The notes beneath the pieces are model-generated. The model was given only the letters and a program-made list of their open reading frames with translations, was not told the origin of the DNA and searched no databases. Below are positions 12,280-28,954 of a DNA stretch of 32,352 bases, in pieces. Position 1 is the first letter of the stretch; every line of letters begins with the position of its first letter. The DNA is from Chloroflexota bacterium (GTDB lineage: Bacteria; Chloroflexota; Anaerolineae; Aggregatilineales; Ch27). The translations under genes and the position numbers were made by a program. Location: assembly GCA_019873685.1 (NCBI GenBank), contig JAIOAT010000046.1, positions 1 to 32,352 of the forward strand, read 5' to 3'.

Positions 12280-12488
12280 GAAAAATGCACCAGCGCCGCA
12301 GGGACACAATGCAGCGATCGTCTGGCCGCCCGACCGGGTGCCAGAACCCGACTCCGGGAGGGGGAGAGCGCCCGGCGCTCTATTGTCGCAACCACGCAGG
12401 CGATGTGATTCACCCGCAGATTGGTTCGCGTTTGCGCCGGGAGCTGACCGCGGGGCGGGTTAGCGGAGAGGTTGAAGCAGGGGGCAGC

Positions 12489-13847
12489 ATGAGCAAAGCG
12501 ACCATGACCGCCCAGGACGCCTGGCAGGCCACCCTTGGGCAGCTTGAACTACAGCTCAACCGGGCGACGTTTGAGACCTGGGTCAAAGGCGCCCGGTTGC
12601 TGGCCTATGAGGATGGCTCGTTCATCGTCAGCGTCCGCAATGCTTATGTCAAATCGTGGCTGGAAAAGCGACTCTACAGCTCAATCCGCCGCACGCTGGC
12701 TGATCTGTTCGGGCGCTCGGTTGAGGTGCGCTTTGTGGTCTACGACCCGCTGGAAGAGCCGGTTGATCTGGGGCCGCTGTGGCCCGAAGACGAGCCGGAG
12801 CTAGGCGCCGCCCCCGGCGAACAGTCCTACGAAACCAACCTCAACCCGCGCTATGTCTTTGAATCCTTCGTCGTCGGCAGCAGCAATCAGCTGGCCCACG
12901 CCGCGGCGATGGCCGTGGCTGATCATCCCGGCAGCGCCTACAACCCGCTGTTCATCTACGGCGATGTCGGGCTGGGCAAGACTCACCTGCTGCACGCCAT
13001 CGGCAATGCTTGCCGCGCACGCGGGCTGCGCGCCCTCTACACCTCTTCCGAACAGTTCACCAACGAACTGATCGATTCTATCCGCGCCCAGAACACCGCT
13101 GCCTTCCGCAACCGCTACCGCATGGTGGATGTCCTGCTGGTGGACGACATCCAGTTCATCGCTGGCAAGGACAGCACGCAGGAGGAGTTCTTCCACACCT
13201 TCAACGCGCTGCACAGCGCCAACAGCCAGATCGTGCTGGCCAGCGATCGCCGCCCGCGGGCAATGGCCACGCTGGAAGAACGGCTGCGTTCCCGCTTTGA
13301 ATGGGGTCTGATCGTTGACATTCAGCCGCCCGACCTGGAGATGCGCATCGCTATCCTCAACGACAAGGCCGAACAGCAGGGCGTTCACCTGCCGGAGGCG
13401 CTGGCCGAATTGATCGCTAACCAGGTGCGGGGCAACATCCGCGAGCTGGAGGGCGTGCTGACCCAGATTCTGGCTCAGGCGCGCCTGGCGCATGTCCCGC
13501 TTTCCGATGAGCTGGCTCGCCGTGTCCTGCGGGAGTTCCGTGCTCCGCGCCGCGTCCATACCGTCGATACAGTGCTGGAGGTCACCGCCGCCTTCCACAA
13601 CCTGACGGTGGAGGACCTGATCGGCCCGCGCCGCACCAAGAAGATCGCCATTGCCCGCCAGCAGGCCATGTACCTGGCGCGGGAAGCTACAGAAGCCTCC
13701 CTGCCGCAGATCGGGGCGATCATGGGCGGGCGCGATCACACCACCGTCATGCATGGCTGCGCCAAGATCGCCGAACTCCTGGAATCGGATGAGGAGATGC
13801 GGCAGGAGATCAAGCAGCTCCGCCTGCGCCTGTTTGAGGGCGACTGA
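12489..13847 (+). CDS. dnaA: chromosomal replication initiator protein DnaA
   Basis: The 452-residue protein is DnaA. Domain I is at about 10-85 (AWQATLGQLELQLNRATFETW), domain II is short (about 86-115), and the AAA+ domain III runs from NLNPRYVFESFVVGSSN. Walker A is GDVGLGKTH (158-166), Walker B LLVDDIQF (216-223), and the sensor/arginine-finger region has LEERLRSRFEWG. Domain IV ends with SLPQIGAIMGGRDHTTVMHG, the DnaA-box-binding signature. The ATG at 12489 follows GGGGGCAGC; the frame is open back to 12285, but that extension is low in DnaA-like features and begins only 5 bases after the -10. No dnaN follows; the next gene is convergent. Confidence 0.96.
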   Translation: MSKATMTAQDAWQATLGQLELQLNRATFETWVKGARLLAYEDGSFIVSVRNAYVKSWLEKRLYSSIRRTLADLFGRSVEVRFVVYDPLEEPVDLGPLWPEDEPELGAAPGEQSYETNLNPRYVFESFVVGSSNQLAHAAAMAVADHPGSAYNPLFIYGDVGLGKTHLLHAIGNACRARGLRALYTSSEQFTNELIDSIRAQNTAAFRNRYRMVDVLLVDDIQFIAGKDSTQEEFFHTFNALHSANSQIVLASDRRPRAMATLEERLRSRFEWGLIVDIQPPDLEMRIAILNDKAEQQGVHLPEALAELIANQVRGNIRELEGVLTQILAQARLAHVPLSDELARRVLREFRAPRRVHTVDTVLEVTAAFHNLTVEDLIGPRRTKKIAIARQQAMYLAREATEASLPQIGAIMGGRDHTTVMHGCAKIAELLESDEEMRQEIKQLRLRLFEGD

Positions 13848-14964: not shown

Positions 14965-14973
14965 TGCTATACT
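14965..14973 (+). promoter_or_regulatory. extended -10 promoter of the MutL-like operon
   Basis: TGC-TATACT (context TGTGCTATACTGAT) is a full extended -10. The first ATG of the operon begins 9 bases after the hexamer, so transcription should start within a few bases of the start codon. Confidence 0.65.
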
Positions 14974-14982
14974 GATCGCGAT

Positions 14983-15297
14983 ATGAGCAGCGAAACCGAC
15001 CGCGCCGCATGGCGCATGCGCTGGGAAAACCGCCTGGCTGGCTGGGGAGAGCGGTTGCGCGCCTGGGGGCTGGATGGGCTGGTGGCGGCGTTGCTGGAGG
15101 CCGCTGAGCCGCTTGGCCCGCTGGGGGCGCAGGTGCTCTATGTGGCCCAGCCCGCGCTGGGCGTCTTTCTCCCGGCGGAGTCGGTTGGGCGCTGGGCGCG
15201 CGCGCTGGAGGACCCGGCCACGCTGGCCTGGCTACGCGCCGGCCTGAACGCGGCGAATCCGGATGAGGAAGGGCCGTCTGATGGACCCGCTGACTAG
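14983..15297 (+). CDS. 104-aa protein of unknown function, first gene of operon
   Basis: The 104-residue product starts MSSETDRAAWRMRWENRLAG and is a soluble, helical protein: an Arg/Trp-rich N-terminus, then LDGLVAALLEAAEPLGPLGAQVLYVAQPAL and an acidic tail. I do not recognise a family. The sentence-like pattern (helix, short hydrophobic segment around LGAQVLYVAQPALGVFLP, helix) could pack against a membrane protein. There is no Shine-Dalgarno upstream and the ATG is almost at the predicted transcript start, so it may be translated leaderless. Its last 17 bases overlap the next gene, showing operon membership and likely coupling. Confidence 0.72.
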   Translation: MSSETDRAAWRMRWENRLAGWGERLRAWGLDGLVAALLEAAEPLGPLGAQVLYVAQPALGVFLPAESVGRWARALEDPATLAWLRAGLNAANPDEEGPSDGPAD

Positions 15298-16141
15298 TGT
15301 CTTTACCCTGCTGGTGCTGCTGGTCACCTTCGTGCTGATCACGGTGGTCGCCCAGTTCCTGCGGCGGCAGCGGCGCTTGCGCCTGGCGCTGCGGCCTATC
15401 GCCGCTTACCGGTCGATGCCGATCCTGGTCAGCGAGGCGGTGGAAAGCGAACGCCCGGTGCATATCTCTTTCGGCGGCAGCGGGCTGGGGCTGGAGTCGA
15501 CCATCTCGGCGCTGGCCGTCGCCGATCTGATGTACCCGCTGGTGGAGCGCGCCTCCGTGGCCCGCCAGACCCCGCTGATCACGCTGAGCGATCCGACGGC
15601 GCTGGGCCTGGCCCAGGGCACGCTGATCCGCGCCTATCGCCGCCGGGAGGCGCTCGGCGCTTACCGCAGCCCTGCCGTGCGCTGGTACCCGCAGGGGCCG
15701 CGTTCGCTGGCCTTTGCGGCGGGCGTTGGCGGGGCGCTGGCGGATGAAGACGCCAACATGAGCGTGGTGGGCGGGCGCTTTGGCCCGGAGATCGCCTTCA
15801 TCGGGGAGGCCGCCTACCGCTATGATCAGACCTTTTTCGCCCAGAGCGATGACCTGGACGGGCAGGCCATTGCCTGGGTGATGGCCGGGCGGCCCCTGCT
15901 GGGCGAAGAGTTGTATGTCGCCGGGGCGTACCTGCCGGCCAAGCCATCGGCCCTGCACCTGAGCCAGCTGCTGGCCATGGATGGCCTGCGCCTGCTGGTG
16001 GTGGTCGCCATTTTGCTGGTGGCGGCGTTCACCGTCATCCGGGAATACTTTGTCCAGATCGCCATCGGGCTGGGCCTGCTTGTCCTGCTGGTCGGCGTCT
16101 ATTACGGGCTGATGTTCCTGCGCGCGCGGAGGAGGGGCTGA
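15281..16141 (+). CDS. DUF6754-like membrane protein
   Basis: The 286-residue protein has an N-terminal membrane segment (about 5-25), a large soluble region (about 30-235) that starts RRQRRLRLALRPIAAYRSMP and includes HISFGGSGLGLESTIS, ALAVADLMYPLVERA and SVVGGRFGPEIAFIGEA, and two C-terminal membrane segments (about 236-280). It resembles DUF6754 proteins, which I recall from Chloroflexota genomes; the function is unknown. The start at 15281 has GAGGAA 10 bases upstream and overlaps the preceding gene. The next gene starts 3 bases after its stop. Confidence 0.8.
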   Translation: MDPLTSVFTLLVLLVTFVLITVVAQFLRRQRRLRLALRPIAAYRSMPILVSEAVESERPVHISFGGSGLGLESTISALAVADLMYPLVERASVARQTPLITLSDPTALGLAQGTLIRAYRRREALGAYRSPAVRWYPQGPRSLAFAAGVGGALADEDANMSVVGGRFGPEIAFIGEAAYRYDQTFFAQSDDLDGQAIAWVMAGRPLLGEELYVAGAYLPAKPSALHLSQLLAMDGLRLLVVVAILLVAAFTVIREYFVQIAIGLGLLVLLVGVYYGLMFLRARRRG

Positions 16142-16144
16142 GCG

Positions 16145-16771
16145 ATGCGGCGAGTACTGGCGGTGCTGGCTTCCAGTCTGGTGCTGGCGCTCGGTCTGGT
16201 CACGCTCTGGGGGTTGTTCCCCGGCTCTCCGGCGGCGCCGGCGGCTGCCGTGCTGATCCAGCTGGTGGTGATCGTCAGCGCGGTCGCGGTGCTGGTGGGC
16301 GTTCTCAACCTGCTATGGGTGCATCTGCAGCGCGTGATCAACGGCGATCCCGGTTGGCCGTACAGCCTGGTGCTGTTCCTGGCGGCCCTGATCGTGATTG
16401 CGCTGGTCACGGTGGAACGGCTGGGCCTGGTGGCCGGTGATCAGCTGAGCGGCTTTCTCTTCAGCGCGGTGCAGGTCTCGGTGGAAAGCGCGCTGGCCGG
16501 ACTGCTGGCGTTCTTCCTGATTTTTGCGGCGGCGCGGCTGCTCCGTCACCGCGTCACCTGGGCAGCCGTGCTCTTTGTCATCACCCTGTTGATCGTCCTG
16601 CTCGGCTGGCTGAGGCTGCCCGCCCTGGGCTTTGTAAACGACCTGAGCGCGTGGATCCGCGATGTGCCCGCCGCCGCCGGGGCGCGCGGCCTGCTGATCG
16701 GCATCGCCCTGGGCGCTGCTGCGACCGGCGTTCGGGTGCTGCTGGGGCAGGACCCCAGCTATCGGGAGTAA
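16145..16771 (+). CDS. polytopic membrane protein, unknown function
   Basis: The 208-residue protein has about six hydrophobic segments (roughly 5-27, 34-60, 74-92, 100-130, 136-158 and 180-200) with short loops, and no recognisable catalytic motif. GGAGGAGGGG precedes the ATG inside the end of the previous gene. The 3-base gap to the previous gene and 6-base gap to the next imply co-translation. By position it is probably a membrane subunit of the same complex as its neighbours. Confidence 0.82.
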   Translation: MRRVLAVLASSLVLALGLVTLWGLFPGSPAAPAAAVLIQLVVIVSAVAVLVGVLNLLWVHLQRVINGDPGWPYSLVLFLAALIVIALVTVERLGLVAGDQLSGFLFSAVQVSVESALAGLLAFFLIFAAARLLRHRVTWAAVLFVITLLIVLLGWLRLPALGFVNDLSAWIRDVPAAAGARGLLIGIALGAAATGVRVLLGQDPSYRE

Positions 16772-16777
16772 ACGGCT

Positions 16778-19700
16778 ATGACCGACGACCGGCCTATCCC
16801 CCCGGAAGATGAGGGCCTGCCGGAATGGCTGCGGGGTTTCGAGCTACCGCCGGATGATGAAGAGGCAGCTAAACCGCCCCCTCAACGGCCCGCCGATTCC
16901 CTGGATTTCCTGCGCGATGTCGGCGGCGAACCCCAGCCCGGTATCCGCGATACCGCGACCATGCAGCCGGTTTCTTCCGGCGCGCCTCCCGCCAAGCCGG
17001 GGCGCAAGCAAATCCTGGAAGAAGATGATGACCTGCCCACGGTAGAGGAACTGCGCGGCATCACCGCCACCCTGCCCTGGATGCGCGACCTGCTGGGCCT
17101 GGAACCGCCCCCGGAGCCAGCGCCAGCCGGGGAACTCCCCCCCAGCCCACCCGAACCCGCCGCCGATGAACTGGATTGGATGGCCTTCGAAGCGGAAGCT
17201 GAACAGGGTGCGCCCGGCGCGCTGCCGGATTGGTTGGCCGGGGCTGATCTGGAATTGGAGCAGCGACCGCTGGAGGAGCCGCCGGTTCCGCCCCCGCCAC
17301 AGGCCGAACCTCCCGACTGGCTGGTCGGGATGGAGGAACAAGTCCTGCCGCCGGAACCTGGCCAGGCCGCCGTCCCCGCCGGAGAGCCGGAAGCGCCCCC
17401 GGACTGGGCGGTAGAACAACCCGCCATGCCGCCCGTTGAGGAAAGCGGGCTTTCCTACGAGGAATGGGAACGGCTGCAGGAAGAAGCCGGGCGCGAGCCA
17501 AGCGAGGCCGAAAAGCTGGCCGAGGAAGTGCCCGAATGGTTTGAGGCTATCGCCGAAGGCGAACTGCCCGCGGCGGAACAGCCCCCTGCCGCCGCCGAAG
17601 CCGCCGCGCCGGAGTTCATGCCGGACTGGTACCTGGGGCTGGAAGAACAGGAACCGGCGCAAAAACCGGAGTGGTTCTCCGCAATTGACTATTCGCCGGA
17701 CGCCCTGACCGCCGAGCCAGTCATCCCGGAAAAGGCTCCCGAACCGGAGCCATCGCTGGAGGACATCCCCGATTGGTTTGCCGGGGCTGAAGTCCCGCCC
17801 GCGCCGGAACCGGAGACGCCTGCCGAAGAGGAGGTGCCCGACTGGTTTGCCGGGGCTGAAGTCCCGCCCACGCCAGAGCCGGAGACCCCCGCTGCGGCGG
17901 AGGTTCCCGACTGGTTCGCCGAAATCGGGCTGACGCCCTCCCGCGAGGCGGATTGGATGGCCGATCTGCAGGCCGCCGCGCCGGAGGAGGAGCAACCTGC
18001 TCCGCCGCTCGCCGAGGAGCCAGCCCTGCCAGAAACGCCAACCCCGGAAGTTGAACCGCCCCGCCCGGCGCACGTGACCGAGCCGCCCGCCTGGCTGGGT
18101 GATTTGCCGTTTGAGCTTGAGCGTGCGCCCGCTGAGGCGGAGGAAACGCCGCCACCGCAAGCGCCTGCTGAGCCGGTCGAAGAATTTATGCAGCTCATCG
18201 AGGAAAAGCTGGGCGAGGTGGAAGCGCCCGCTCCGCTGACCACCGGCCAGGACGCGCTGGTGCCGCTGGAGCAGGCCGAGTTCGACCTGGATGAGCTATT
18301 TGCCGTGGCGGAATTGCCGCCGGAAGAAGAAGCCGTTGAACAGGCGCCCCCGCCGGGGGCGGAAATCGCGGCGACGCAACTCCCGGATTGGCTGGCCGGT
18401 GTGCAGGTTGGTGGATTCTCTGTCGTCCGCCAGGCTATGGATGTTGGCGAGACTCCGCTTGAGGAGTTAAGTGAGCGCCTGCGCGCCCTGCGCGAGCGGG
18501 CACTGGCTGCCGCTGAGGCCGCGCCGCCGCCTTCGCCAGCTCCGGCTACGTCTGCGCTGGATGGGATCACCGATGGCCTGGCTCCGGCGACGATCTTTGG
18601 CAACATGGCAGGCCGGGAAATGATCCTGGAAACCCGGCTGGATGAGCGCCAGGCGGCGCGTGTGGCGACGCTCTCCGGCCTGCTGGGGCTGGGTGAAGAA
18701 GCTGTTGCCCGTGACGCCGAAGGCCGTCCGGTCGCCCTCACCGGCGCCCAGCAGGCCGTACGCATTGCGGAGGCGGCCAAGCGCGCCCGCGCCCGCAGCC
18801 GCTTCAAGCCCGCCCGCGTGCTGGTTACGCTGGCGCTGCTGGCGGCGCTGGTGCTGCCCTTCCTGGTTGATGTTTCCGCCCTGCTCCCACTGCCACCGGC
18901 GGCTCTTGACCCGGCCAGTCAGGGGACGCTCGATGCGGCGATCGAGGAACTGGACGAGCGCTCGCAGGTGCTGGTCGGCTTTGAGTACGGTCCAACCGCC
19001 GCTGGCGAGATGGACGCTTTGACCAGGGCGTTGCTGACCCATGTGTTGATCCGGGGAGCCAGACCTGTGATCGTCAGCACCAATCCGGCGGGCGTGCTGC
19101 ATGCCCGCAATGTGCTGGCTGACCTGGCCGCTGACCCCTTCATCCTGGCCCGGCGGGGACGCACTGCCGCCCTGACCATGCCGGATGATTACGTGATCCT
19201 GCCCTACCTGCCGGGCGGGGTGGTTGGCCTGCGCGCCCTGACCGCCACCAGCACCGATGCCAGCGCCCTGGATCGCGGCCTGTTTGCCGTCGACCTGGAA
19301 GGCCATCCGACCGGCCTGGACATCCGCTTCCTGCAGACGGCGTTTGACCTGGCGCTGGTCTTTGGCGAGCGCGGCGAAGATGTCCGTCTGTGGGTGGAAC
19401 AGGTTGGCGCGGTGATCAAGTTGCCGCTCGGCGCGGCGGTCGCCGCCGGGGCGGAGCCGGTGGCCCGCCCGTACCTGGCCTCCGGCCAGCTGATCGGCCT
19501 GCTGGCCGGTTATCGCGACGCTTACAGCTATGACGCCGTGCTGCGTTCGGCCCTGGCCCAGGCGGGCGGCGAGGCTCCCGGCGGGCGGTTGACAACCGGT
19601 ACACCCCTGCCCAGCCCGACTCCCAGCCCAACACCGACGCAGCGCGTCACCGCCACACCAACATCCACGCCTGCTGACGAAGACCTGACGGCCACTGCCC

Positions 19701-19954
19701 TGGCTTCCGGCACGCCAACCGCTATCCCCAGCGCCACGCCCCGCGTGATCATCACCGCTACCCCGGTTCCCACACAGGCGCGGCCCGCCGTCGAATCGCA
19801 GGCGCCGACGCCCATCCCGCCGCCGCCCGCCCCGCCGGAACAGGACACGCGCTGGTACAGCATGACGCTCGGCGTACTGGCTGCCGGAGGGCTGATCGGT
19901 CTGGGGGCGCTGGTCAACTTCGCTCAGTGGATACGCCGGAGGCGAGAGCCGTGA
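16778..19954 (+). CDS. 1058-aa membrane protein with Trp-motif repeats
   Basis: This protein is unlike any family I can name. Residues 1-560 are acidic, Pro/Glu-rich and probably disordered, with about 15 Trp motifs, mostly P-[DE]-W-[LFMY] followed by a small residue (for example LPEWLRG, LPDWLAG, PPDWLVG, VPEWFEA, MPDWYLG, VPDWFAG). Residues about 600-685 are a helical basic region ending KRARARSRFKPAR. A membrane segment follows (about 687-705), then a folded external domain (about 710-940, with VLVGFEYGPTAAGEMDALT, GARPVIVSTNPAG and FLQTAFDLALVFGE), a Thr/Pro stalk (about 945-1020), and a second membrane segment (about 1028-1050) ending RRRREP. Both termini should therefore be cytoplasmic. 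The repeated Trp motifs look like docking sites for a cytoplasmic partner. The stop overlaps the GTG start of the next gene. Confidence 0.85.
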   Translation: MTDDRPIPPEDEGLPEWLRGFELPPDDEEAAKPPPQRPADSLDFLRDVGGEPQPGIRDTATMQPVSSGAPPAKPGRKQILEEDDDLPTVEELRGITATLPWMRDLLGLEPPPEPAPAGELPPSPPEPAADELDWMAFEAEAEQGAPGALPDWLAGADLELEQRPLEEPPVPPPPQAEPPDWLVGMEEQVLPPEPGQAAVPAGEPEAPPDWAVEQPAMPPVEESGLSYEEWERLQEEAGREPSEAEKLAEEVPEWFEAIAEGELPAAEQPPAAAEAAAPEFMPDWYLGLEEQEPAQKPEWFSAIDYSPDALTAEPVIPEKAPEPEPSLEDIPDWFAGAEVPPAPEPETPAEEEVPDWFAGAEVPPTPEPETPAAAEVPDWFAEIGLTPSREADWMADLQAAAPEEEQPAPPLAEEPALPETPTPEVEPPRPAHVTEPPAWLGDLPFELERAPAEAEETPPPQAPAEPVEEFMQLIEEKLGEVEAPAPLTTGQDALVPLEQAEFDLDELFAVAELPPEEEAVEQAPPPGAEIAATQLPDWLAGVQVGGFSVVRQAMDVGETPLEELSERLRALRERALAAAEAAPPPSPAPATSALDGITDGLAPATIFGNMAGREMILETRLDERQAARVATLSGLLGLGEEAVARDAEGRPVALTGAQQAVRIAEAAKRARARSRFKPARVLVTLALLAALVLPFLVDVSALLPLPPAALDPASQGTLDAAIEELDERSQVLVGFEYGPTAAGEMDALTRALLTHVLIRGARPVIVSTNPAGVLHARNVLADLAADPFILARRGRTAALTMPDDYVILPYLPGGVVGLRALTATSTDASALDRGLFAVDLEGHPTGLDIRFLQTAFDLALVFGERGEDVRLWVEQVGAVIKLPLGAAVAAGAEPVARPYLASGQLIGLLAGYRDAYSYDAVLRSALAQAGGEAPGGRLTTGTPLPSPTPSPTPTQRVTATPTSTPADEDLTATALASGTPTAIPSATPRVIITATPVPTQARPAVESQAPTPIPPPPAPPEQDTRWYSMTLGVLAAGGLIGLGALVNFAQWIRRRREP
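17757..17944 (+). repeat. three tandem copies of a 69-bp coding unit
   Basis: The word tggttYgccg recurs at 17774, 17843 and 17912, exactly 69 bases (23 codons) apart. The first two copies are nearly identical over more than 40 bases; the third has diverged after the Trp codon. It encodes the PDWFAGAEVPP...PEPETPA unit of the Trp-motif protein. Confidence 0.85.
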
Positions 19955-20601
19955 CGCCACAAGCGCTTGACGCCATCGGGGTCTGGGTGGGCTTCATCCT
20001 GACCCTGCTGATCTTCAGCTACCTGCTGACCGACAACTTCCTTTACCGGCTGACGGTTTACCTGTTTGTGGGGGTGGCAGCGGCCTATACCGGCGTGGTT
20101 GCTGTGGAAGGCGTGCTGCTGCCCTGGCTGCGCGGGACGCTGCTGGCCCCCGCGCCGCAAACCGGGCAGATCGTGCTGGGTCTGATCCCCCTGCTGGTCG
20201 GCGGCCTGCTCCTGCTCAAAGCTATCCCGGCCCTGGCCCCGCTGGGCAACCTGGGCCTGGCCTTCCTGATCGGCATCGGCACGGCAGTGGCGCTGATCGG
20301 CACGATCAGCGGCACGCTGATCCCGCTGGTCTACAGCAGCGGCGCGGCCATCGGCGATGACTTCGTCAACGGCCTGATCCTCATCCTGGGCACGATCACC
20401 ACCCTGCTATACTTCCAGTACCTTTCTGTTAAGACGCCGGAAGGGGAGGTGGTGCGGCCTCTGCTGGTGCGGGTGGCTGGCGGCATCGGCCAGATTTTCC
20501 TGATCGTAACCTTCGCTTCGCTCTATGCCGGCGCGATCCTCTCCAGCCTGACCATCGTCAGCGAGCGGATCGCCTTCCTGCTGGCGCGTGTGCTGGGCTG
20601 A
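19951..20601 (+). CDS. polytopic membrane protein, unknown function
   Basis: The 216-residue protein has about six membrane segments (first around VGFILTLLIFSYLL, last around GQIFLIVTFASLYAGAIL) and ends in a short basic tail. No family is recognised. The GTG start at 19951 overlaps the TGA of the preceding gene (GTGA) and has GGAGG about 8 bases upstream; another in-frame GTG at 19927 is less likely. The overlap shows tight translational coupling to the Trp-motif protein, suggesting the two are made in fixed ratio. Confidence 0.82.
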   Translation: MTPQALDAIGVWVGFILTLLIFSYLLTDNFLYRLTVYLFVGVAAAYTGVVAVEGVLLPWLRGTLLAPAPQTGQIVLGLIPLLVGGLLLLKAIPALAPLGNLGLAFLIGIGTAVALIGTISGTLIPLVYSSGAAIGDDFVNGLILILGTITTLLYFQYLSVKTPEGEVVRPLLVRVAGGIGQIFLIVTFASLYAGAILSSLTIVSERIAFLLARVLG

Positions 20602-20613
20602 GTGGTGTGAGCC

Positions 20614-22725
20614 ATGGCTGGAACGAGCGACCTCAAATCGATCATTGCGGTGGATTTTGGCAGCGTCAACACGCGGGCAGTGCTGATCGACCTGGTGGAC
20701 GGCGTATACCGTCTGGTGGCCTGCACCGCGACGCGCACCACCGCCGACGATCCGCTGCGCGACGTGGCGGTGGGTCTATTCCGCGCTCTGGCGGCCATGG
20801 AGGAGCAAACCGGGCGCCGCTTGCTCGATGCACAGCAGCAGTTACTGACCCCGGAAACCCGCGACGGCGCCGGGGTGGACGCTCTGCTGGCGACGGCCAG
20901 CGTCGGGCAGCCGCTGCGGGTGGTGGTTGTCGGCCTGATGCCGGATGTCAGCGTGGCCAGCGCCCTGCACGTGCTGGCCGGATCGTATGTCACCGTCGTT
21001 GACACCCTCTCCCTGGCTGATGTCCGCACCGAAGAGCAGCAGATCAACGCCATGCTGGCTCATAAGCCAGACCTGATCTTCATTGTCGGCGGCACAGACG
21101 CCGGGGCGGAAGAGCCGATCCTTGAACTGGTCAGGGTCGTGCGCAGCGCGGTGCAGATCGCCGCCCACCGGCCGATGGTGCTTTACGCTGGCAACCGCGC
21201 CGCTCAGGAACAGGTGAAGACCCTGCTGGATGGGCTATGCACGCTGGAAATCGCCGATAACGTGCGGCCCACCCTGGAGGAAGAAACGCTCGGCGGCGCC
21301 CAGCAAGGGTTGGCCGTGCTCTATGACCGCTTCAAGATGGAAAGCGGCGGCGGCTTTGACGAGGTGAGCAAGCTCAGCAAGATTGGCGTGCTGCCCACTG
21401 CCCAGAGCCTGACCAATATCGTGCGTTACCTGGGGGAGGTAACGGCCCGCGACCGGCGCAACCCGGCCCAGGGCGTGCTGGCGGTCGATGTCGGCAGCGC
21501 CACCACCACGGCGGCGGCCTCCATCCAGCGCCAGCCGTACATCAACATTCGCACCGATATCGGCATCGGCCACAGCGCCGCCACGCTGCTCGACTTCACT
21601 ACGCCGGGCAACCTGCGCCGCTGGCTGACCTGGGACGCCTCCGATTCCGAGATTATCTCCTACCTGCACAATAAAGCCCTGCGCCCGGCTACCGTACCCC
21701 AGACCACCCGCGAGCTTGAGCTGGAATACGCCGCCACACGGGAGGCGATCCGCGTGGTGGTTGAGCAGGCCCGCGCGTCCTGGAAGGTCGGCCCGGCGAT
21801 GCCCGTGTTGCGCCCGATCATCGGCGGCGGGGCGGTGTTGGCCAACACGCCGCACCCTGGTCTGGCCGCCATGCTCCTGCTGGATGCCATCCAGCCGGTC
21901 GGCGTGACCGAGCTGTGGCAGGACCCGGTCGGGCTGATCCCGGCGATGGGCGCGCTGGCTTACCTCAAGCCGGAAGCGGTTGTGCAGATGATCGACGAAG
22001 GCGACCTGATCCGCCTCGGCTCAGTTGCCTGCATGGAAGGGGAAGTGCGGCGCATCGGGCGCGGCGGCATGCGGGTGACCATCCGCCTGGCGGACGGCCA
22101 GGTGGTGCGCCGTGATGTCGCCGCCGGGACGATCTGGACGTATCCATTGCCGCCCGGCCAGACGGCCGCCGTTGACATCAGCGTGACGCGCGGCCTGACC
22201 ATCGCCGGGCGCGGGCGCGTCCGCCTGCAGATGACCGGCGGCGCTGCCGGCCTGATCTTTGATGCCCGGGGTCGTCCGTTGCCGCTGCCGCGCGACGCTG
22301 AGGCGCGGGCGCAGCTTTACCCGCGCTGGGCCGCCGGTACGCGGGGCGTCATCCAGCGCCGCGCCGACGAAGTGGATGAATCACAGGTGGGCAGGGGCGA
22401 ACTGGATAGCGTCGCCCTGCAGCTGGAAGCGGAAGCGACCGCCGCCGTGCCGGAGGAAGAAGACCTGCTGGAAGTCTCCGATGCTCCCGTCCGGCCTGCC
22501 CGGCGCCGCCTGTTCGGCTTCCTGCGGCGGCGGTCAGCCCTGGCGGTGGAAGACGCGCTTGAGGAGGAAGAGTCGGAGGGCGCGCCGGTTGGCAGGGCGA
22601 CGCCAGCCGGGCTGAACGGTGACGGGCAATTGACGCCGGGGTCGCCCTCGACCAAACCGTTCATCGACGATGAGGAACTGCGCACCGAGTTGCGCGGGGC
22701 AAAGGGCCGCCGCCAGCGCCGTTAA
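20614..22725 (+). CDS. MutL/GlmL-like actin-fold ATPase with C-terminal extension
   Basis: The 703-residue protein matches the glutamate-mutase MutL (GlmL) family of ASKHA ATPases over about residues 8-455. It shows two phosphate-binding loops, IIAVDFGSVNTRAVLID (10-26) and LAVDVGSATTTAAAS (about 289-303), and the adenosine-type segment IIGGGAVLANTPHPG (about 402-416), then DPVGLIPAMGALAYL. Family members characterised in clostridia are linked to reactivation of the B12-dependent glutamate mutase. Here about 250 extra residues follow: a beta-rich region (about 460-580, VRRIGRGGMRVTIRLADGQ) and a basic/acidic disordered tail (RPARRRLFGFLRRR, final RGAKGRRQRR). No mutase gene lies in the window and the neighbours are membrane proteins, so the role is probably different: an ATP-driven assembly or cytoskeletal-type factor. 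That is inference. Confidence 0.88.
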   Translation: MAGTSDLKSIIAVDFGSVNTRAVLIDLVDGVYRLVACTATRTTADDPLRDVAVGLFRALAAMEEQTGRRLLDAQQQLLTPETRDGAGVDALLATASVGQPLRVVVVGLMPDVSVASALHVLAGSYVTVVDTLSLADVRTEEQQINAMLAHKPDLIFIVGGTDAGAEEPILELVRVVRSAVQIAAHRPMVLYAGNRAAQEQVKTLLDGLCTLEIADNVRPTLEEETLGGAQQGLAVLYDRFKMESGGGFDEVSKLSKIGVLPTAQSLTNIVRYLGEVTARDRRNPAQGVLAVDVGSATTTAAASIQRQPYINIRTDIGIGHSAATLLDFTTPGNLRRWLTWDASDSEIISYLHNKALRPATVPQTTRELELEYAATREAIRVVVEQARASWKVGPAMPVLRPIIGGGAVLANTPHPGLAAMLLLDAIQPVGVTELWQDPVGLIPAMGALAYLKPEAVVQMIDEGDLIRLGSVACMEGEVRRIGRGGMRVTIRLADGQVVRRDVAAGTIWTYPLPPGQTAAVDISVTRGLTIAGRGRVRLQMTGGAAGLIFDARGRPLPLPRDAEARAQLYPRWAAGTRGVIQRRADEVDESQVGRGELDSVALQLEAEATAAVPEEEDLLEVSDAPVRPARRRLFGFLRRRSALAVEDALEEEESEGAPVGRATPAGLNGDGQLTPGSPSTKPFIDDEELRTELRGAKGRRQRR

Positions 22726-22787
22726 GCGGGGACGCGGGGGATTTGCGATCTGCCCGCATGGTTGAGAGGTTTGTGGCGGGCAGGGCT

Positions 22788-22816
22788 TTGCTTTTTTGGG
22801 CCTTCGGGCTTTAAAT
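22788..22816 (+). promoter_or_regulatory. possible internal promoter
   Basis: TTGCTT (22788-22793) and TTAAAT (22811-22816) are spaced by 17 bases in the 143-base gap after the MutL-like gene. The match is weak. Confidence 0.25.
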
Positions 22817-22868
22817 AGGGATACCCGGCGCACCTTACTGGCTGCGAGGGGCAAAGAGTCAGCGGACT

Positions 22869-23945
22869 ATGGCTACCTACTACCCGGATCAGACGACCAT
22901 CTTGCCCATGACGACCATCCGCCGGGAGCGCACGCTGCCGCCGGATGTCATTGGTGAGGTGACGGTGCAGCTTGATGCGTTTGTCAGCGCCGTGGATGTC
23001 GTTGCGCGTGGTATGCGCGCCAGCCGCTACCTGGTGATCGACTTGCGGAGTGCGCTTGGTACGAGCGACCCGGCCATGATGGCGGCCCGGCTGCACGTCC
23101 GGGCCGGTCAGGTCATCCGCAAGGGCGATGTCCTGGCCGGGGACAAGAAGAACCGCCGCACACTCCTGCGCGCCCCGGTGGCCGGCAGGGTACACAGCGT
23201 GGTGGATGGCCGGCTGGTGTTGCAGACCGGCCTGAGTGAAGTCAATGTGCGGGCGGGCTTCCGCGGCGTGGTGACTTCCGTCCGACCGCGCGGCGTACTG
23301 CTGGAGACAACCGGCGGGCTGGTGCAGGGCGTATGGGGCAACGGGCGCAACTGCCTGGGCGCGCTCAAGATGGCCCCGCGCGGTGGACTGGGGGTGCTAG
23401 AAGTGGAGGAAATCACGCCCGACTGGCGGGGAGCGATCGTCGTCAGCCCGCAGCCGCTGGATCGCCTGGCCCTGGCCAAGGCAGAGGCGCAGGCCCTGGG
23501 GGCGGTCATTGCCCCTTCGATGCCGGCGGATTTGCGTCCAGTCGCGCTAAAGTTCAAAATCCCTATAATGTTGACTGAGGGCTTTGGCTCGGAACCGATG
23601 AACCGGTTGGCTCAGGAGGTGCTGGAATCCTACGCTGGCATGCAGGCGTCGCTCAGCGCCCACGAGCCGAACCGCTGGTCGCCGGATCGACCGGAGGTGA
23701 TCATCCCGGCGCAGGCCGATCGCATACCACCCCCACCGGCCCGTGATGAGCCGCTCCGTCCCGGTGCTGAGGTGCGCATCATCCGCCAGCCCTATGCCGG
23801 GATGATTGGCCGGGTCCGCAGCCTGCCGCGGGTCCCGCAGCGCATTGAAAACGGCCTGCGCCTGCCGGTAGCGGAAGTCCTCCTGCCCAGTGGGCGGACG
23901 GTGACCGTCCCGCTGGTTAACCTGGAACTGTTTGGACGGGGTTAA
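22869..23945 (+). CDS. 358-aa protein with biotinyl/lipoyl-like and KOW-like regions
   Basis: I do not recognise a characterised family. The central part (about 75-130) looks like a biotinyl/lipoyl-type barrel: VRAGQVIRKGDVLAGDKK, then RTLLRAPVAGRVHSVVDGRL. It lacks the MKM lysine, so it is not a cofactor carrier. The next part (about 135-250) is a mixed alpha/beta domain with GGLVQGVWGNGRNCLGALKM and PIMLTEGFGSEPMN. The C-terminus (about 295-358) looks like a KOW/SH3-type barrel: GAEVRIIRQPYAGMIGRV and VPLVNLELFG. No signal or membrane segment is seen, so it is cytoplasmic. It lies 143 bases after the MutL-like gene and ends in a terminator, making it the last gene of the operon or a small unit of its own. 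Confidence 0.78.
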   Translation: MATYYPDQTTILPMTTIRRERTLPPDVIGEVTVQLDAFVSAVDVVARGMRASRYLVIDLRSALGTSDPAMMAARLHVRAGQVIRKGDVLAGDKKNRRTLLRAPVAGRVHSVVDGRLVLQTGLSEVNVRAGFRGVVTSVRPRGVLLETTGGLVQGVWGNGRNCLGALKMAPRGGLGVLEVEEITPDWRGAIVVSPQPLDRLALAKAEAQALGAVIAPSMPADLRPVALKFKIPIMLTEGFGSEPMNRLAQEVLESYAGMQASLSAHEPNRWSPDRPEVIIPAQADRIPPPPARDEPLRPGAEVRIIRQPYAGMIGRVRSLPRVPQRIENGLRLPVAEVLLPSGRTVTVPLVNLELFGRG

Positions 23946-23946
23946 G

Positions 23947-23968
23947 CCCCTGCGTTCAGGGGGTTTTT
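23947..23968 (+). terminator. rho-independent terminator
   Basis: CCCCTG-cgtt-CAGGGG (23947-23962) followed by a T5 run (23964-23968) starts 2 bases after the stop codon of the 358-aa gene. It separates the MutL-like operon from the next gene, perhaps incompletely. Confidence 0.8.
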
Positions 23969-23996
23969 CATCCCCCGCACAGTGAAGGAGAGAGCA

Positions 23997-24818
23997 ATGA
24001 GCGATAGGGACGAGCTGTTCAGGGATGACTCCTTCGACGAAGAACCCTTTGGCGATGAAGATTTCTGGCCGCCAGAAGAAGAGGAAGCGGCCGGAGAAGG
24101 CGATCTGCGCTCCGAACTGGGGGATGAAAGCCGCGATGTGCCGGAGTTTGGCGAGGAGCTGGAAGAGGAAGAAGGCCGCCGCCGGACCATCCTGGGGATG
24201 AACCGTACGTTTGTCATTATCGGCGCCATCATCGCCCTGATCGTGTGCCTGGGGATTGGCGTGCTGCTGGTCTACATTCAGGCGACCGCTGGCCCGACGG
24301 ACATTGAACTGACGGTCACGGCGGTCTACGCCACCAATACTTTTGTCGCCTACGCTCTGGAACTGACCGAAACGCAGAACGCCGTCAACGCCAACCTGAC
24401 GGCCACCGCCGACGCCTGGACAGATACGCCCACGCCGACGCCGACTTTCACCGCGACGCCCAGCCCTTCGCCCACCGTGGAGCTGGCCACCCAGGTGCCG
24501 ATCTTTATGACGCCCACCCCTGATCTCTCTGCCGGAGGGCTGAGCGCCAGCGCGATCGAATTGACCGCGACGAAGCTGGCAGTCGTCCTGCGCGGCGGCA
24601 CGCCCACACCGGAGGGAGGCGTTGTCGTCCCCGGCGGCGGGTTCGTGACGGTGACGCCGTCCGGCCCAGTCCCACAGGTGACCACGCTGCCCGATTCCGG
24701 CCTGTTTGATGATGCTATTGCCGGCGGGCAGGGCATCAACGGTCTGCTCACGGCGGCGCTGGCCGCCCTGGGACTGGGGGCCGTGATCGTGGTGGTCCGC
24801 CGTCTGCGGGCGCAGTAA
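23997..24818 (+). CDS. bitopic protein with acidic head, Thr/Pro stalk and LPDSG-like anchor
   Basis: The 273-residue protein has a strongly acidic cytoplasmic head (1-60, many Asp/Glu), a basic stop (GRRR) and a membrane segment (about 72-95, FVIIGAIIALIVCLGIGVLLVYI). An external region follows with ELTVTAVYATNTFVAYALELT, a Thr/Pro stalk (about 140-160), and a C-terminal LPDSG motif, a second hydrophobic stretch (GLLTAALAALGLGAVIVVV) and the basic end RRLRAQ. This last tripartite order resembles a sortase-type sorting signal. I recognise no family. AAGGAG is 6 bases before the ATG. It shares the acidic head, stalk and two-TM plan with the 1058-aa protein upstream, which suggests a related role. 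Confidence 0.78.
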   Translation: MSDRDELFRDDSFDEEPFGDEDFWPPEEEEAAGEGDLRSELGDESRDVPEFGEELEEEEGRRRTILGMNRTFVIIGAIIALIVCLGIGVLLVYIQATAGPTDIELTVTAVYATNTFVAYALELTETQNAVNANLTATADAWTDTPTPTPTFTATPSPSPTVELATQVPIFMTPTPDLSAGGLSASAIELTATKLAVVLRGGTPTPEGGVVVPGGGFVTVTPSGPVPQVTTLPDSGLFDDAIAGGQGINGLLTAALAALGLGAVIVVVRRLRAQ

Positions 24819-25136: not shown

Positions 25137-25189
25137 CTCCCGTGTCGGACGCTCATGAAGGGCTTCCCCATCGCCAGGCGAGAAACGCT

Positions 25190-26563
25190 ATGGACACTGC
25201 CGGGGTTTCCGAGCTGTACCGCGATGATGATTTGCGCGCTGTGTTGCGCCTGCTGGCCGGCGGCCATTGCGTCGCCGTGGTGGGGATGAGCAACTTCGGC
25301 AAGTCCACCCTGCTGCGCGCCCTGCAATCCCCCGCCGCCGCCGAGCATTACCGGGAGCTGACCGGCACATCTGCGTTATTTGTTTATGTTGACTGCAACC
25401 GGATGCTGGAGCTTTCGCCGCGCGGCTTCTTTGAGGCTACCCTGCGGGCGGTGCTGGAGACGCTGCCCCCGGAGGATGAGGCGCTGCGGGCCATCATCCA
25501 GGCGCAGTATGAGATCATTGTCCAGCCGCCGAATGATTTCGCTGCGCCACTGGCGTTCAACAATGCCCTGGTGAGTCTGGTGGAAGAAGCGGCGCGGCGG
25601 GTTGTCCTGCTGCTGGATGAGTTCGACGAGGTCCTGACCGGGATTGAGCCGCGCATCCTGCTGAACCTGCGCGCCCTGCGCGATCGCTATGGCGCCGACC
25701 TCAGCTATGTGATTGCCTCCGTCATCCTGCCCACCTACGGCCCGGACGACGACCATGTGGCTGAGTTCGCCGAATTGTTCGCCGCCGGGCGGCATTATCT
25801 TGGCCCGCTTTCGCTGGAGCATACCCGGCGGATGGCCGCCGAGTTGTTCACCGCCGCCAACGATCATCTGGATGACGCCGAAGCCGAGTTTGTGGAACGC
25901 CAGGCAGGCGGCCACCCTGGCCTGATCCAGTCAGTGGTGCGGGTGCTGTTGCAGGTGGAAAGCGGCGCGCCGCAGCTTTACCAGCGCCAGGCTTTTGCCC
26001 TGGCGACCGAGATGCTGGAATCCGACCGCCAGACGATCAACGAGTTGAACCGGCTGTGGCGGCAGCTCAGCGGGGACGAACAGCAGGCTCTGATCGAGGC
26101 GGTGACCGGCGGGCGCTTTTCGCCGGAGACGGTGCGCGCCCTGGCCCAGCGCGGGCTGATCGACCCCGCCCAGATCGATCAGCAGACTCCCCGCCTGCTG
26201 GGGGAACTGTTCACCCGCTTTGTGCGCCGCAAGGCGCTCACGCGGGCCGGGCGCCAGCGCGGCATCCGCGTTGACACCGATTCCGGCCAGGTGTGGGTGG
26301 ACGGTGTGGCAATCGAGACGCTGACCGATCTGGAGTACCGCCTGTTGCTGCTGCTCTATGGGCGGCTGGATAAAATCTGCGACAAGTACCAGCTGGTTGA
26401 AGCCGTCTGGGGCGAGGAGTACATCGACGAAGTGGATGACGCCCGCATCGAAAAGCTGGTCAGCCGCCTGCGCTCCAAACTGGAAGCCCACCCCGGCGCG
26501 GCCCGTTACCTGGTCACCGTGCGCGGGCGCGGCTACCGGCTTTCCAGCGTGCCGGAGGAATAA
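25190..26563 (+). CDS. AAA/STAND-like ATPase fused to OmpR-type winged helix
   Basis: The 457-residue cytoplasmic protein has an N-terminal P-loop ATPase: Walker A GMSNFGKST (32-40) and Walker B VVLLLDEFDE (138-147, D143/E144). A helical region follows (about 195-355) containing AGGHPGLIQSVVRVLL, which resembles the lid or winged-helix part of Orc1/Cdc6- and STAND-type ATPases. The C-terminus (about 362-455) is a PhoB/OmpR-type DNA-binding domain: LTDLEYRLLLLLYGRLDKIC, YQLVEAVWGEEY, KLVSRLRSKLE and the wing TVRGRGYRL. It has no receiver domain. A switch ATPase that controls transcription is the natural reading; the signal is unknown. It precedes a receiver-kinase hybrid by 280 bases. Confidence 0.88.
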   Translation: MDTAGVSELYRDDDLRAVLRLLAGGHCVAVVGMSNFGKSTLLRALQSPAAAEHYRELTGTSALFVYVDCNRMLELSPRGFFEATLRAVLETLPPEDEALRAIIQAQYEIIVQPPNDFAAPLAFNNALVSLVEEAARRVVLLLDEFDEVLTGIEPRILLNLRALRDRYGADLSYVIASVILPTYGPDDDHVAEFAELFAAGRHYLGPLSLEHTRRMAAELFTAANDHLDDAEAEFVERQAGGHPGLIQSVVRVLLQVESGAPQLYQRQAFALATEMLESDRQTINELNRLWRQLSGDEQQALIEAVTGGRFSPETVRALAQRGLIDPAQIDQQTPRLLGELFTRFVRRKALTRAGRQRGIRVDTDSGQVWVDGVAIETLTDLEYRLLLLLYGRLDKICDKYQLVEAVWGEEYIDEVDDARIEKLVSRLRSKLEAHPGAARYLVTVRGRGYRLSSVPEE

Positions 26564-26635
26564 AGCCCGGCCAGGCTGCCTCGTCACCATTTGACCTGGG
26601 AAACCATTAAGGCAGAACCGGGCAGCTAAAAACGG

Positions 26636-26644
26636 TGTTATACT
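26636..26644 (+). promoter_or_regulatory. possible extended -10 upstream of the receiver-kinase gene
   Basis: TGT-TATACT lies 200 bases before the kinase ATG, in the 280-base gap after the ATPase gene. Confidence 0.45.
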
Positions 26645-26725
26645 TCTCTGCCGGGCCATTGCCGGGCAAAGGCGCTGATCCCGGCCCGGATTCCCGGATT
26701 TCATGAAGCGACCATTGCGCCTGAG

Positions 26726-26736
26726 TATGATAGAAT
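26726..26736 (+). promoter_or_regulatory. second possible -10 upstream of the receiver-kinase gene
   Basis: Overlapping TATGAT and TAGAAT hexamers lie about 110 bases before the ATG. No -35 is clear. Confidence 0.35.
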
Positions 26737-26843
26737 GATAGCGTCAAGGCAGATGGCATATTCAACGCGCCTATTTTGTGTGCGAATCGACAGTCGGCCA
26801 GCCACTGGATGGCAGGCCCGATAGCGTGAAGGAGGAGGGCCTG

Positions 26844-27977
26844 ATGGCTGAGCGTCAAGCAACCCTGCTCGTGGTGGAAGATGATATTCATCTGCTGCAG
26901 GGTATCCGTGACATTCTGGAGATCGAGGGGTACCAGGTGGTAACCGCCTCCAGCGGTGTTGAAGGGCTGGAAATGCTGCATAGCATGCCCAAGCCGCCCG
27001 ACCTCATCATCTCCGATATTATGATGCCGCGTATGGACGGCTACCAGTTCTTTGAGGCGGTGCGGGCGTCGGAAGAATGGCTGGATATCCCGTTCGTGTT
27101 CCTGACGGCCAAAGGCGAAAAGCACGATGTCCGGCTGGGCAAGCGCCTGGGCGCGGATGACTACGTCATCAAGCCGATGGACCCGGAAGACCTGCTGGTG
27201 GTGGTCGAGTCCAAGCTCAAGCGTACCGCCGAGATCAAGGATCGCTACGACAGTCAGGTATCCAGCATCAAGCACAACATCCTGACCATCCTCAACCATG
27301 AGTTCCGCACCCCGCTGACTTACATGGTGGCCTACGCCGATATGCTCAACACCGACGCTGAGCACTTGACGGCGGAAGAACTGCGCGCATTTCTGCGCGG
27401 GGTTAACAGCGGCGCCGATCGCTTCCGCCGCCTGGTCGAGAATTTCATCGCTCTGGTGGAACTGGAGACAGGCGAGGCCCGCAATAACTATGAATGGCGC
27501 CGGCAACCCGTGACCGATGTGCGCCCGCTGTGCAACGAGGTTATGGAGATGACTCGCCCTGCCGCTGAGGAGCGCCATGTCGAACTGATCGCCCGGGTTC
27601 CGGAAAGCGTGCCAGAGTTTTCCGCCGATTATGAGTATCTGCGGGCGGCGCTGGTTCAGCTCCTCGACAACGCGGTCAAATTCTCCGACAAGCCCAACTC
27701 GCGTGTGGAACTGCGCGTCGATTCCGATGCTTCCAGCGTGCGCTTTGCCGTGCAGGATTGGGGGCGCGGCATCGAAGCCGCCGAGTTTGAACGTATCTGG
27801 CAGCCGTTCTACCAGATCGAACGCGCCCAGTACGAGGATCAGGGCGCGGGTTCCGGGCTGGCGATCGTGCGCGGCATTGTCGAGTTGCACGGCGGGCGGG
27901 TGGACCTGCAGAGCACCTTTGGCAAGGGCAGCACCTTTACGATCATCCTGCCCCGCACGGCCCCCGACCTGGCCTGA
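26844..27977 (+). CDS. receiver domain-histidine kinase hybrid
   Basis: The 377-residue cytoplasmic protein has an N-terminal receiver (acid pocket D13/D14, phosphoacceptor D58 in ISDIMMPRMDGY, T88, K110 in YVIKPMDPEDLL). A HisKA domain follows with H152 in ILNHEFRTPL, and an HATPase_c domain with N-box LLDNAVKFS (N276), G1 DWGRG (305-309) and G2 GAGSGLAIVRGIVELHGG. No membrane segment or PAS domain is present. With the receiver first, phosphorylation by another kinase probably controls this kinase's own activity. It has no DNA-binding output, so it needs a partner regulator. GGAGGAGG precedes the ATG at 26844. Confidence 0.95.
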   Translation: MAERQATLLVVEDDIHLLQGIRDILEIEGYQVVTASSGVEGLEMLHSMPKPPDLIISDIMMPRMDGYQFFEAVRASEEWLDIPFVFLTAKGEKHDVRLGKRLGADDYVIKPMDPEDLLVVVESKLKRTAEIKDRYDSQVSSIKHNILTILNHEFRTPLTYMVAYADMLNTDAEHLTAEELRAFLRGVNSGADRFRRLVENFIALVELETGEARNNYEWRRQPVTDVRPLCNEVMEMTRPAAEERHVELIARVPESVPEFSADYEYLRAALVQLLDNAVKFSDKPNSRVELRVDSDASSVRFAVQDWGRGIEAAEFERIWQPFYQIERAQYEDQGAGSGLAIVRGIVELHGGRVDLQSTFGKGSTFTIILPRTAPDLA

Positions 27978-28044
27978 GACCCGCCCCAGGCCCGGATCGT
28001 CAGCCTGCTGTCCGACTGCTGTCAGTGTCTAACTGGCGTGCCTG

Positions 28045-28053
28045 TGCTAAGAT
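28045..28053 (+). promoter_or_regulatory. extended -10 promoter of pspA
   Basis: TGC-TAAGAT (context TGTGCTAAGATAAAAG) lies about 41 bases before the ATG; no -35 is evident. No sigma54-type GG-N10-GC element was noticed. Confidence 0.55.
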
Positions 28054-28094
28054 AAAAGGCAAACCGGGGCACAAGCTTAAGGAGGCCGTCGCTC

Positions 28095-28796
28095 ATGGCG
28101 CAGTCTTTGCTGGACAAAGTGCAGACCCTCATTTCGGCTAACCTGCATGGCCTGGTTGACGCCGCGCTGGAAAAGAACTCGATCAAGGTGATGGACGAGT
28201 ACATCCGGCAGGCCGAGCGCAACCTGGATTCACTGGAGGATTCGGCGGCCACCGTTGGCGGGACGGTACGCACGCTCAAGCGCAAGCATGAGGAATATGC
28301 CGCCGCCGCCGAAAAGCTCGACCGCGATATCGACGCCCTGCTGATCAGGGGGAAGAACGAACTGGCGGCTGCTGCTCAGGCTGACCTCAACACCAAGCAA
28401 CAGCTGGCTCAGGAATACTACGAGCAGTGGCAGCAGCAGGAAGAGCAGTACCGCAGGATGATGGACATGAAGCTCAAGCTGGAGGCCAAGCTCACGACCA
28501 TCAAACAGGAACGTGAGCAGGTCATCGCCCTGCTTGAGCTGGCCGAAGCCAAGCGTATCACCACCAAGACGATCAAGAGCCTGGATGACCTGGCCGGTCA
28601 GGGTGATGAAGACGTCGCCCGCGTGGTGGACGCCATCCGCAGCCGCCTGGACCGGGAAGACGCCAAGCTGGCTATGGCGACCGGCCGTCTGAGCGAGCAA
28701 ATCGAGGAAGCTGTTGGCTTCAGCGAGGTGGAGCAGCAACTTGAAGAACGCCGCCGCCGCCTGAACCTTGGCGGTGGCGAGAGCGGCGGGCAATAA
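28095..28796 (+). CDS. pspA: PspA/IM30 family membrane-stress protein
   Basis: The 233-residue protein is a PspA/Vipp1 (IM30) homologue, an ESCRT-III-like protein that forms oligomers on the inner face of the membrane and repairs or stabilises it. It starts with the amphipathic helix MAQSLLDKVQTLISANLHGL, followed by VDAALEKNSIKVMDEYIRQA and long heptad helices rich in Glu, Gln and Lys (about 40-165). The end SEQIEEAVGFSEVEQQLEER is a typical PspA tail with a short Gly-rich finish. GGAGG lies 9 bases before the ATG. No pspF, pspB or pspC is nearby; kinases and an NfeD-like gene are. Confidence 0.94.
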   Translation: MAQSLLDKVQTLISANLHGLVDAALEKNSIKVMDEYIRQAERNLDSLEDSAATVGGTVRTLKRKHEEYAAAAEKLDRDIDALLIRGKNELAAAAQADLNTKQQLAQEYYEQWQQQEEQYRRMMDMKLKLEAKLTTIKQEREQVIALLELAEAKRITTKTIKSLDDLAGQGDEDVARVVDAIRSRLDREDAKLAMATGRLSEQIEEAVGFSEVEQQLEERRRRLNLGGGESGGQ

Positions 28797-28830
28797 AAGA
28801 ACGCCGCGGCTGCCGCCAGCTATCACCGGG

Positions 28831-28890
28831 GCGAGGTCGCCGGGGGAGCGCGATCATCCGATCAGTTCTTCCGGGCTGGCCTCGCTCTTT
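28831..28890 (+). terminator. weak long-loop hairpin after pspA
   Basis: GCGAGGTC (28831-28838) can pair with GGCCTCGC (28878-28885) across a long loop, followed by TCTTTTG. It may give partial termination in the 158-base gap before the kinase gene. Confidence 0.25.
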
Positions 28891-28954
28891 TGATCGAACC
28901 ATCCAAAGCTGTGTGGCAACGCGGCAGGTCCCAGCGGCGCAGGGGGGTGCGACG

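Follow-up and report, generated by a model that had tools for sequence, protein, structure and literature searches.

A run of seven genes in a Chloroflexota bacterium (GenBank assembly GCA_019873685.1, contig JAIOAT010000046.1; the 32,352 nucleotides analysed are here called the window) is conserved as a single unit among relatives, beyond what chance would give. The genes, designated g1 to g7, all lie on the + strand at 14983-23945, with the overlaps and short gaps that the original prediction had reported; the listing of open reading frames and the sequence agree on this. They encode four predicted membrane proteins (g2, g3, g4 and g5), a small protein (g1), an actin-fold protein of the GlmL/MutL family (g6) and a soluble protein (g7). 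One way to understand the unit, offered tentatively, is as a predicted ATP-driven remodelling machine located at the envelope, perhaps acting in the manner of a B12-enzyme reactivase.

Conservation of the gene order

Joint inheritance of the genes, on which the original prediction depended, is borne out in relatives. A motif scan yielded 573 stretches, 557 of them relatives; in the best 80 of these 557, all titled as Chloroflexota lineages and none used to train the gene profiles, g1 to g7 stand in identical order at 57 loci, and at the remaining 23 the contig ends no more than 660 bases from the recognised genes. A first set of 41 loci (40 fetched MutL surroundings and the window), which partly trained the profiles, shows the unit in several extents: g1-g7 in order at 13 loci, g2-g7 at three, g1-g6 at eight, g2-g6 at one, g6-g7 alone at 13 and g6 alone at two; at one more, g5 and g6 overlap when sorted. 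Packing is tight; median gaps from g1 to g7 in 70 complete operons are -4, 0, 3, -4, 5 and 6 nt (starts were assigned mechanically, hence outliers).

Genome-wide profile searches covered a sample of 251 Chloroflexota genomes. DUF6754, the family of g2, occurs in 56 of them (55 over the cut-off), one copy per genome. In all 46 genomes that carry DUF6754 and MutL on one contig, DUF6754 lies upstream of MutL, on the same strand and within 9 kb; nine others have the two split over contigs, and one (G081) has no listed MutL. The supposition that the seven genes are unrelated chance neighbours in this one genome can appeal to the variety of the proteins and to nothing beyond; identical order at 57 of 80 loci, with truncation by the contig in the other 23, and co-location in 46 of 46 same-contig cases have already refuted it, and its probability is negligible.

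A long-form MutL apart from glutamate mutase

The sixth gene, g6 (20614-22725, +), begins 12 bases after g5 and encodes 703 amino acids. Its placement in the MutL/GlmL family with both phosphate loops, made earlier from the sequence alone, is secure: the protein matches PF13941 (MutL) at 6.4e-64 and 216.8 bits (cut-off 27), covering nearly the whole profile; the two loops read DFGSVNT from residue 14 (D14-G16-T20) and DVGSATT from residue 292 (D292-G294). Among 39 aligned rows, the window included, Asp, Gly and Thr of phosphate loop 1 are kept in 33, 38 and 37, and Asp and Gly of phosphate loop 2 in 34 and 37. The single stretch of g6 flagged by hydropathy falls within the MutL domain.

MutL is found in 138 of the 251 genomes at E 1e-3 and in 106 over the cut-off; open frames of strong hits are mostly of about 580-740 amino acids. 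The long form to which g6 belongs (562-774 amino acids in the 39 rows) has an extra C-terminal part, two residues of which, D550 and R552, are the same in all 39. The word D[A/G]RGR, extended to DARGRP in g6, occurs in 31 of the 39 long forms and in none of five short or B12-fused MutL proteins; a tree places the 39 and the five on opposite sides of a 100/99 branch. One open frame of 1264 amino acids (L042:4233-8027) combines a MutL domain with a long N-terminal part that resembles a cobalamin enzyme by eye; its MutL part groups with the short MutL proteins in the tree.

A conservative perspective takes g6 as the ordinary reactivase of a B12 enzyme, serving a mutase encoded elsewhere, its neighbours being incidental. 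Membership in PF13941 fits this, as does the described role: a passage of PMC4682846 presents MutL as a chaperone that reactivates glutamate mutase. Hits to glutamate mutase (PF06368) below the cut-off are also present in seven of the 55 DUF6754 genomes and in the window's own genome (19.6 bits at best, the cut-off being 26.6), and these may be other mutases. Over the cut-off, however, glutamate mutase is found in only five of the 251 genomes (G168, G105, G065, G170 and G243), against 106 for MutL, and the 55 DUF6754 genomes have no such hit (glutamate mutase being the one B12 mutase searched for); the co-inherited mutase that would have told against the original prediction is not seen. The NCBIfam GlmL equivalog NF040745 gives g6 107.7 bits, far from its cut-off of 475. 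Where MutL does adjoin a mutase (two cases in G065, one in G168), its open frames are of 467-486 amino acids, and the two such proteins tested in the tree fall outside the long-form group; G168 keeps both forms at separate sites, the short one by the mutase and the long one with g5 and g7 (L037). Compared with Pfam and NCBIfam, the eight genes (the seven and g8, described below) give no match to a B12 enzyme family, in keeping with the earlier remark that the operon contains no mutase subunit or B12 gene. An ordinary reactivase is very improbable.

The seventh gene and a wider core

The seventh gene, g7 (22869-23945, +; 358 amino acids), follows g6 after 143 bases. Its sequence, which has no membrane span, and its predicted model fit the proposal that it is a soluble partner of the ATPase. 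The protein matches NQRA_N (28.1 bits, cut-off 25; 2.5e-6) and, by profile, SPT5 KOW (3.2e-8), the Pfam KOW match being below cut-off; against the nqrA equivalog it reaches 20.4 bits (cut-off 321), and only the N-terminal barrel-sandwich part matches. The predicted model (pLDDT 89.6, pTM 0.67) suggests a barrel-sandwich hybrid, a swivelling beta/beta/alpha domain (148-281) and a KOW/Tudor-like domain (293-358). NusG of Thermotoga maritima (1.5e-4) is the only Foldseek match under 0.001.

The g6-g7 pair is a wider core than the membrane unit. The g7 profile finds 157 of the 251 genomes, or 149 after eight hits weaker than 1e-15 are dropped. At 13 of the 41 first-set loci, g6 and g7 stand without any g1-g5 profile hit; of 20 further loci picked around g7, 13 have an adjacent g6 relative, and among the rows listed Pfam MutL is over the cut-off at only two of these (G001, G011). 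The other seven loci are L162-L167 and L180, no g7 being found at L180. The original proposal, that the ATPase serves in a membrane-bound assembly, is supported only in part: its gene is conserved with g1-g5, but at the loci where the pair does without them the ATPase is not tied to such an assembly.

The gene upstream of g6 at L053-L058 encodes a zinc-ribbon protein in which LPxW occurs 5-14 times and which gives no hit to the outer domain of g4, and L170 has the order zinc ribbon, g6, g7. The usual company of the pair would then be a tryptophan-motif adaptor, often with a zinc ribbon, joined in DUF6754 lineages by the membrane proteins. Other neighbours were seen as well. Where g7 stands apart from g6, a gene for a response regulator or a sensor kinase is no more than two genes away from it in six of six loci examined (L162-L167, of families f22, f32, f57 and f60). 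In two f30 genomes, a TsaE-like gene comes after the g6-g7 pair (L172, by Pfam; L178, by eye).

A predicted tryptophan-motif adaptor and a proposed membrane body

Hydropathy predicts membrane spans in g2, g3, g4 and g5, the four membrane proteins of the original prediction, and none in g1 or g7. For the window proteins g1, g3, g4 and g5, neither Pfam nor NCBIfam gives a match above its cut-off. The largest, g4 (16778-19954, +; 1058 amino acids), starts six bases after g3. Its first 670 residues form a tail with 16 Trp and 151 acidic against 35 basic residues; hydropathy then gives a span (676-710), a folded domain, a Thr/Pro-rich linker, a last span (1028-1049) and a basic end. From this distribution of charge, the N-terminal tail is predicted to lie inside and the folded domain outside. 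Across 102 g4 proteins, LPxW occurs 3.4 times per protein (0.09 in shuffles), and 70 of the 102 have at least two copies; the window protein has three strict motifs. A zinc-ribbon pattern is present in 53 of the 102 and absent from the window copy. The earlier picture of the Trp-motif protein as membrane adaptor or hub agrees with this sequence and with the predicted model. The notion that the motif is a general tag in the window's own genome was tried and dropped: patterns coding for LP[DE]WL number 10, against 13 for the reversed control, and therefore no general use is indicated.

The outer domain of g4 (18875-19567, +) is predicted to have a Rossmann-like fold (pLDDT 91.8, pTM 0.89). The best structure match is to 1kjn (Z 10.5, rmsd 3.4, 142 residues aligned), RCK/TrkA and others following near Z 8; these matches assign no enzyme. 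In one genome from the same taxonomic order as the window, the g4 protein (L031:5365-9711, G226) seems, by eye, to have SH3-like repeats in its outer part, where other g4 proteins have the Rossmann-like domain.

The remaining membrane proteins would make up a membrane body. The gene g2 (15281-16141, +; 286 amino acids), which overlaps g1 by 17 bases, matches DUF6754 (PF20539; 2.6e-14, 53.4 bits, cut-off 27), with R38, E55, G65, G165, G208, E209, D234 and R237 invariant in 23 aligned rows. Its sequence, read for hydrophobicity and charge, points to a membrane helix, an alpha/beta domain inside and C-terminal membrane helices. Two polytopic membrane proteins of no named family are predicted from g3 (16145-16771, +; 208 amino acids; three bases after g2) and g5 (19951-20601, +; 216 amino acids; sharing GTGA with the end of g4).

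DUF6754 is not confined to Chloroflexota. One such protein from outside the phylum is P0052; PF20539 is present in the 120 top relatives listed for it, among whose names Zixibacteria and Eisenbacteria appear. P0052 has, by eye, a long N-terminal stretch ahead of its first hydrophobic segment, and one listed relative, from Zixibacteria, is named 'fibronectin type III domain-containing protein'; both are consistent with a DUF6754 domain that faces inside. Two suspected kinships within the unit gained no support from profile comparison: that of the g2 domain with the outer domain of g4 (best P 0.08) and that of g3 with g5.

These proteins could instead form a signalling or regulated transport complex, in which the outer domain of g4 and g8 would sense a ligand or the wall, g2 would relay the signal inward, and g6-g7 would act as a nucleotide switch. 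We regard this as unlikely. RCK domains are cytosolic, whereas the g4 domain is predicted outside; g2, g3 and g5 match no transporter or receptor family over cut-off in Pfam or NCBIfam (relatives of g3 and g5 included) and no solved structure by profile. Profile searches of the PDB with g2, g3, the C-terminal part of g4, g5 and g6 gave nothing convincing.

The eighth gene and the envelope

An eighth gene of the unit, g8 (23982-24818, +; 278 amino acids), has similar genes after g7 in most relatives. From its N-terminus, the protein has an acidic tail, a membrane helix, a Thr/Pro-rich stretch, LPDSG, a second membrane helix and the end RRLRAQ. By criteria fixed after the first examples had been seen, a two-span Thr/Pro-rich protein is encoded within 400 nt after g7 at 69 of 99 loci with room for one, and at 58 of these 69 it carries PxTG close to its end. 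LPDSG, helix and basic tail recall an LPxTG-type sortase substrate, yet at its N-terminus the protein has an acidic tail and a membrane anchor; the window's own genome has four sortase-domain matches over cut-off.

A further link to the envelope may lie in MurG. Of 221 genomes that have a MurG match at E 1e-3, 147 contain g7, as do two of the 30 that have none (Fisher 1.8e-10; 20 of the 30 MurG-less genomes were printed, the other 10 obtained by elimination); over the cut-off, MurG is found in 86 of the 251. The association is weak evidence, because the same search also matches 14 of 14 control genomes, archaea included, and because ancestry is a confounder: of the 20 MurG-less genomes listed, 18 are of 0.9-2.2 Mb and eight are from one family.

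The presence of g7 mostly in genomes with a MurG match would also suit a possible but doubtful alternative, that g6 is no chaperone but an actin-like scaffold comparable to PilM/GspL or MreB/FtsA, a polymer or cytoplasmic platform that organises an envelope or secretion complex beneath g2-g5. An actin-fold protein, a bitopic adaptor and polytopic membrane proteins are the layout of the PilM/GspL and MreB-RodZ systems. Yet g6 matches MutL and, in Pfam and NCBIfam, no MreB, FtsA or PilM family; g2-g5 match no pilus or elongasome family; and PilM- and MreB-type systems are not known to have a counterpart of the swivelling-domain partner. The window's own genome has, moreover, two strong MreB matches, so that g6 is no stand-in for a missing MreB there.

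Transcription signals and surroundings

The first gene, g1 (14983-15297, +), encodes 104 amino acids without a membrane span; it matches no named family, and its profile has hits in 79 loci. An extended -10 promoter element, TGCTATACT, lies at 14965-14973 (+), nine bases before its ATG, which would make the transcript nearly leaderless. The promoter claimed before the first gene thus gains a conserved element, although the promoter scan listed no + strand site ahead of g1. In relatives, the pattern TGnTA[T/C][A/G/T]nT falls within -70 to +10 of the g1 profile start at 47 of 79 loci; composition shuffles, a control that leaves kinship among the loci in the count, give 2.2 on average and 8 at most. 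TGnTATACT has 92 sites in 1.52 Mb, 48 of them at g1. A second exact TGCTATACT occurs within g5, at 20405-20413, about 200 bases upstream of g6 (two sites in the window, 0.06 expected), and could be an internal promoter for g6-g7.

The terminator claimed after the last gene answers to a terminator-like hairpin at 23947-23962 (+) with GTTTTTC directly after it; the hairpin pattern is weak on its own, because 11 such sites occur in the region where 4.6 are expected.

Upstream, dnaA (12285-13847, +) ends about 1.1 kb before g1, with a phosphoesterase gene on the opposite strand between them. Downstream of the unit (25142-31111) are genes for an AAA ATPase with a C-terminal winged helix, a response regulator fused to a histidine kinase, and a protein kinase.

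A possible mechanism

The reading we favour, with restrained confidence, is of an undescribed membrane machine at the level of the phylum: an ATPase of the B12-reactivase type, freed from its B12 enzyme, would work with a swivelling-arm partner, be tethered through tryptophan motifs to a four-protein complex, and drive a process at the cell surface. The glycerol dehydratase reactivase, as a passage of PMC7674605 has it, joins an ATPase to a swivelling domain; g6 and g7 appear to reproduce this pair of domains on two proteins, from which we infer an ATP-driven remodelling pair. In such a machine, g6 would bind ATP and the swivelling domain of g7, carried in the glycerol dehydratase reactivase by the ATPase chain itself, would be the moving arm; together they would pull a subunit on or off their client. 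The acidic tail of g4 would, through its Trp motifs, tether the pair to the membrane; the ATP cycle would alter the assembly or gating of a membrane body made of g2, g3 and g5; and the outer domain of g4, with the surface protein g8, would read out the change. Where a lineage lacks the membrane genes, a separate adaptor with a zinc ribbon and Trp motifs may bring g6-g7 to its client.

Several points weigh against this reading, in addition to the behaviour of MurG in control genomes and its confounding by ancestry. With no B12 enzyme in the operon, the client of a reactivase is missing. The phosphate loops are not strict: Asp-1 is replaced by Glu or Asn in six of the 39 rows (Glu in five, four of these from family f22) and Asp-2 differs in five of 39, so that some g6 members may bind ATP without hydrolysing it. 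The swivelling domain is a common fold, and no dehydratase reactivase is among the structure matches listed for g7, though that absence proves nothing. The two proteins are not always encoded together, for g7 is apart from g6 in eight first-set loci (families f22, f32, f57 and f60), being elsewhere in all eight genomes; G226, from the same taxonomic order as the window, has no g7 by profile, its operon stopping at a contig end. Finally, the outer domain of g4 has no clear homologue (best Foldseek E 5.7e-3, none under 0.001).

Relation to known systems

Literature searches, in which subscription journals were thinly covered, found no description of an operon of g1-g7, no paper on glutamate mutase and MutL in Chloroflexi, and none naming DUF6754 (PF20539), of which g2 is a member. 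To our knowledge, the envelope biology of Chloroflexota has been little studied; the phylum gains here a conserved and testable operon with a conserved promoter element, and one system unites one DUF with six families that lack a Pfam entry of their own (g1, g3, g4, g5, g8 and, its NQRA_N stretch aside, g7). Should the favoured reading be right, a membrane complex is under the control of a repair-type ATPase, and those searches found no such role for the GlmL family.

Compared part by part, g6 taken by itself is a variant within a known family, GlmL/MutL; the whole system matches no known kind that could be named. PilM/GspL and MreB-RodZ differ from it in the family of the ATPase and in membrane partners, none of which g2-g5 match, and the window's genome has MreB genes of its own. 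The NqrA/RnfC barrel-sandwich and the NusG/Spt5 KOW are shared with g7 only as small domains, here with a predicted swivelling domain between them. With GlmL/MutL (PF13941), g6 has the domain and both phosphate loops in common; it differs in its long form, in the added C-terminal part, and in having no mutase in the operon nor, as a rule, in the genome. The likeness to the diol and glycerol dehydratase reactivases (DdrA/GdrA) would lie in domain pairing, an ATPase domain with a swivelling domain according to a passage of PMC7674605: g6 has the actin-fold family match, and the swivelling fold is predicted in g7. A reactivase of this type would be expected next to its B12 enzyme; the Pfam and NCBIfam matches of the eight genes include no such enzyme, and no small beta subunit was recognised among them. 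In the present system the two domains are predicted on separate proteins, a barrel-sandwich and a KOW domain are added, and membrane proteins take the place of the soluble dehydratase.

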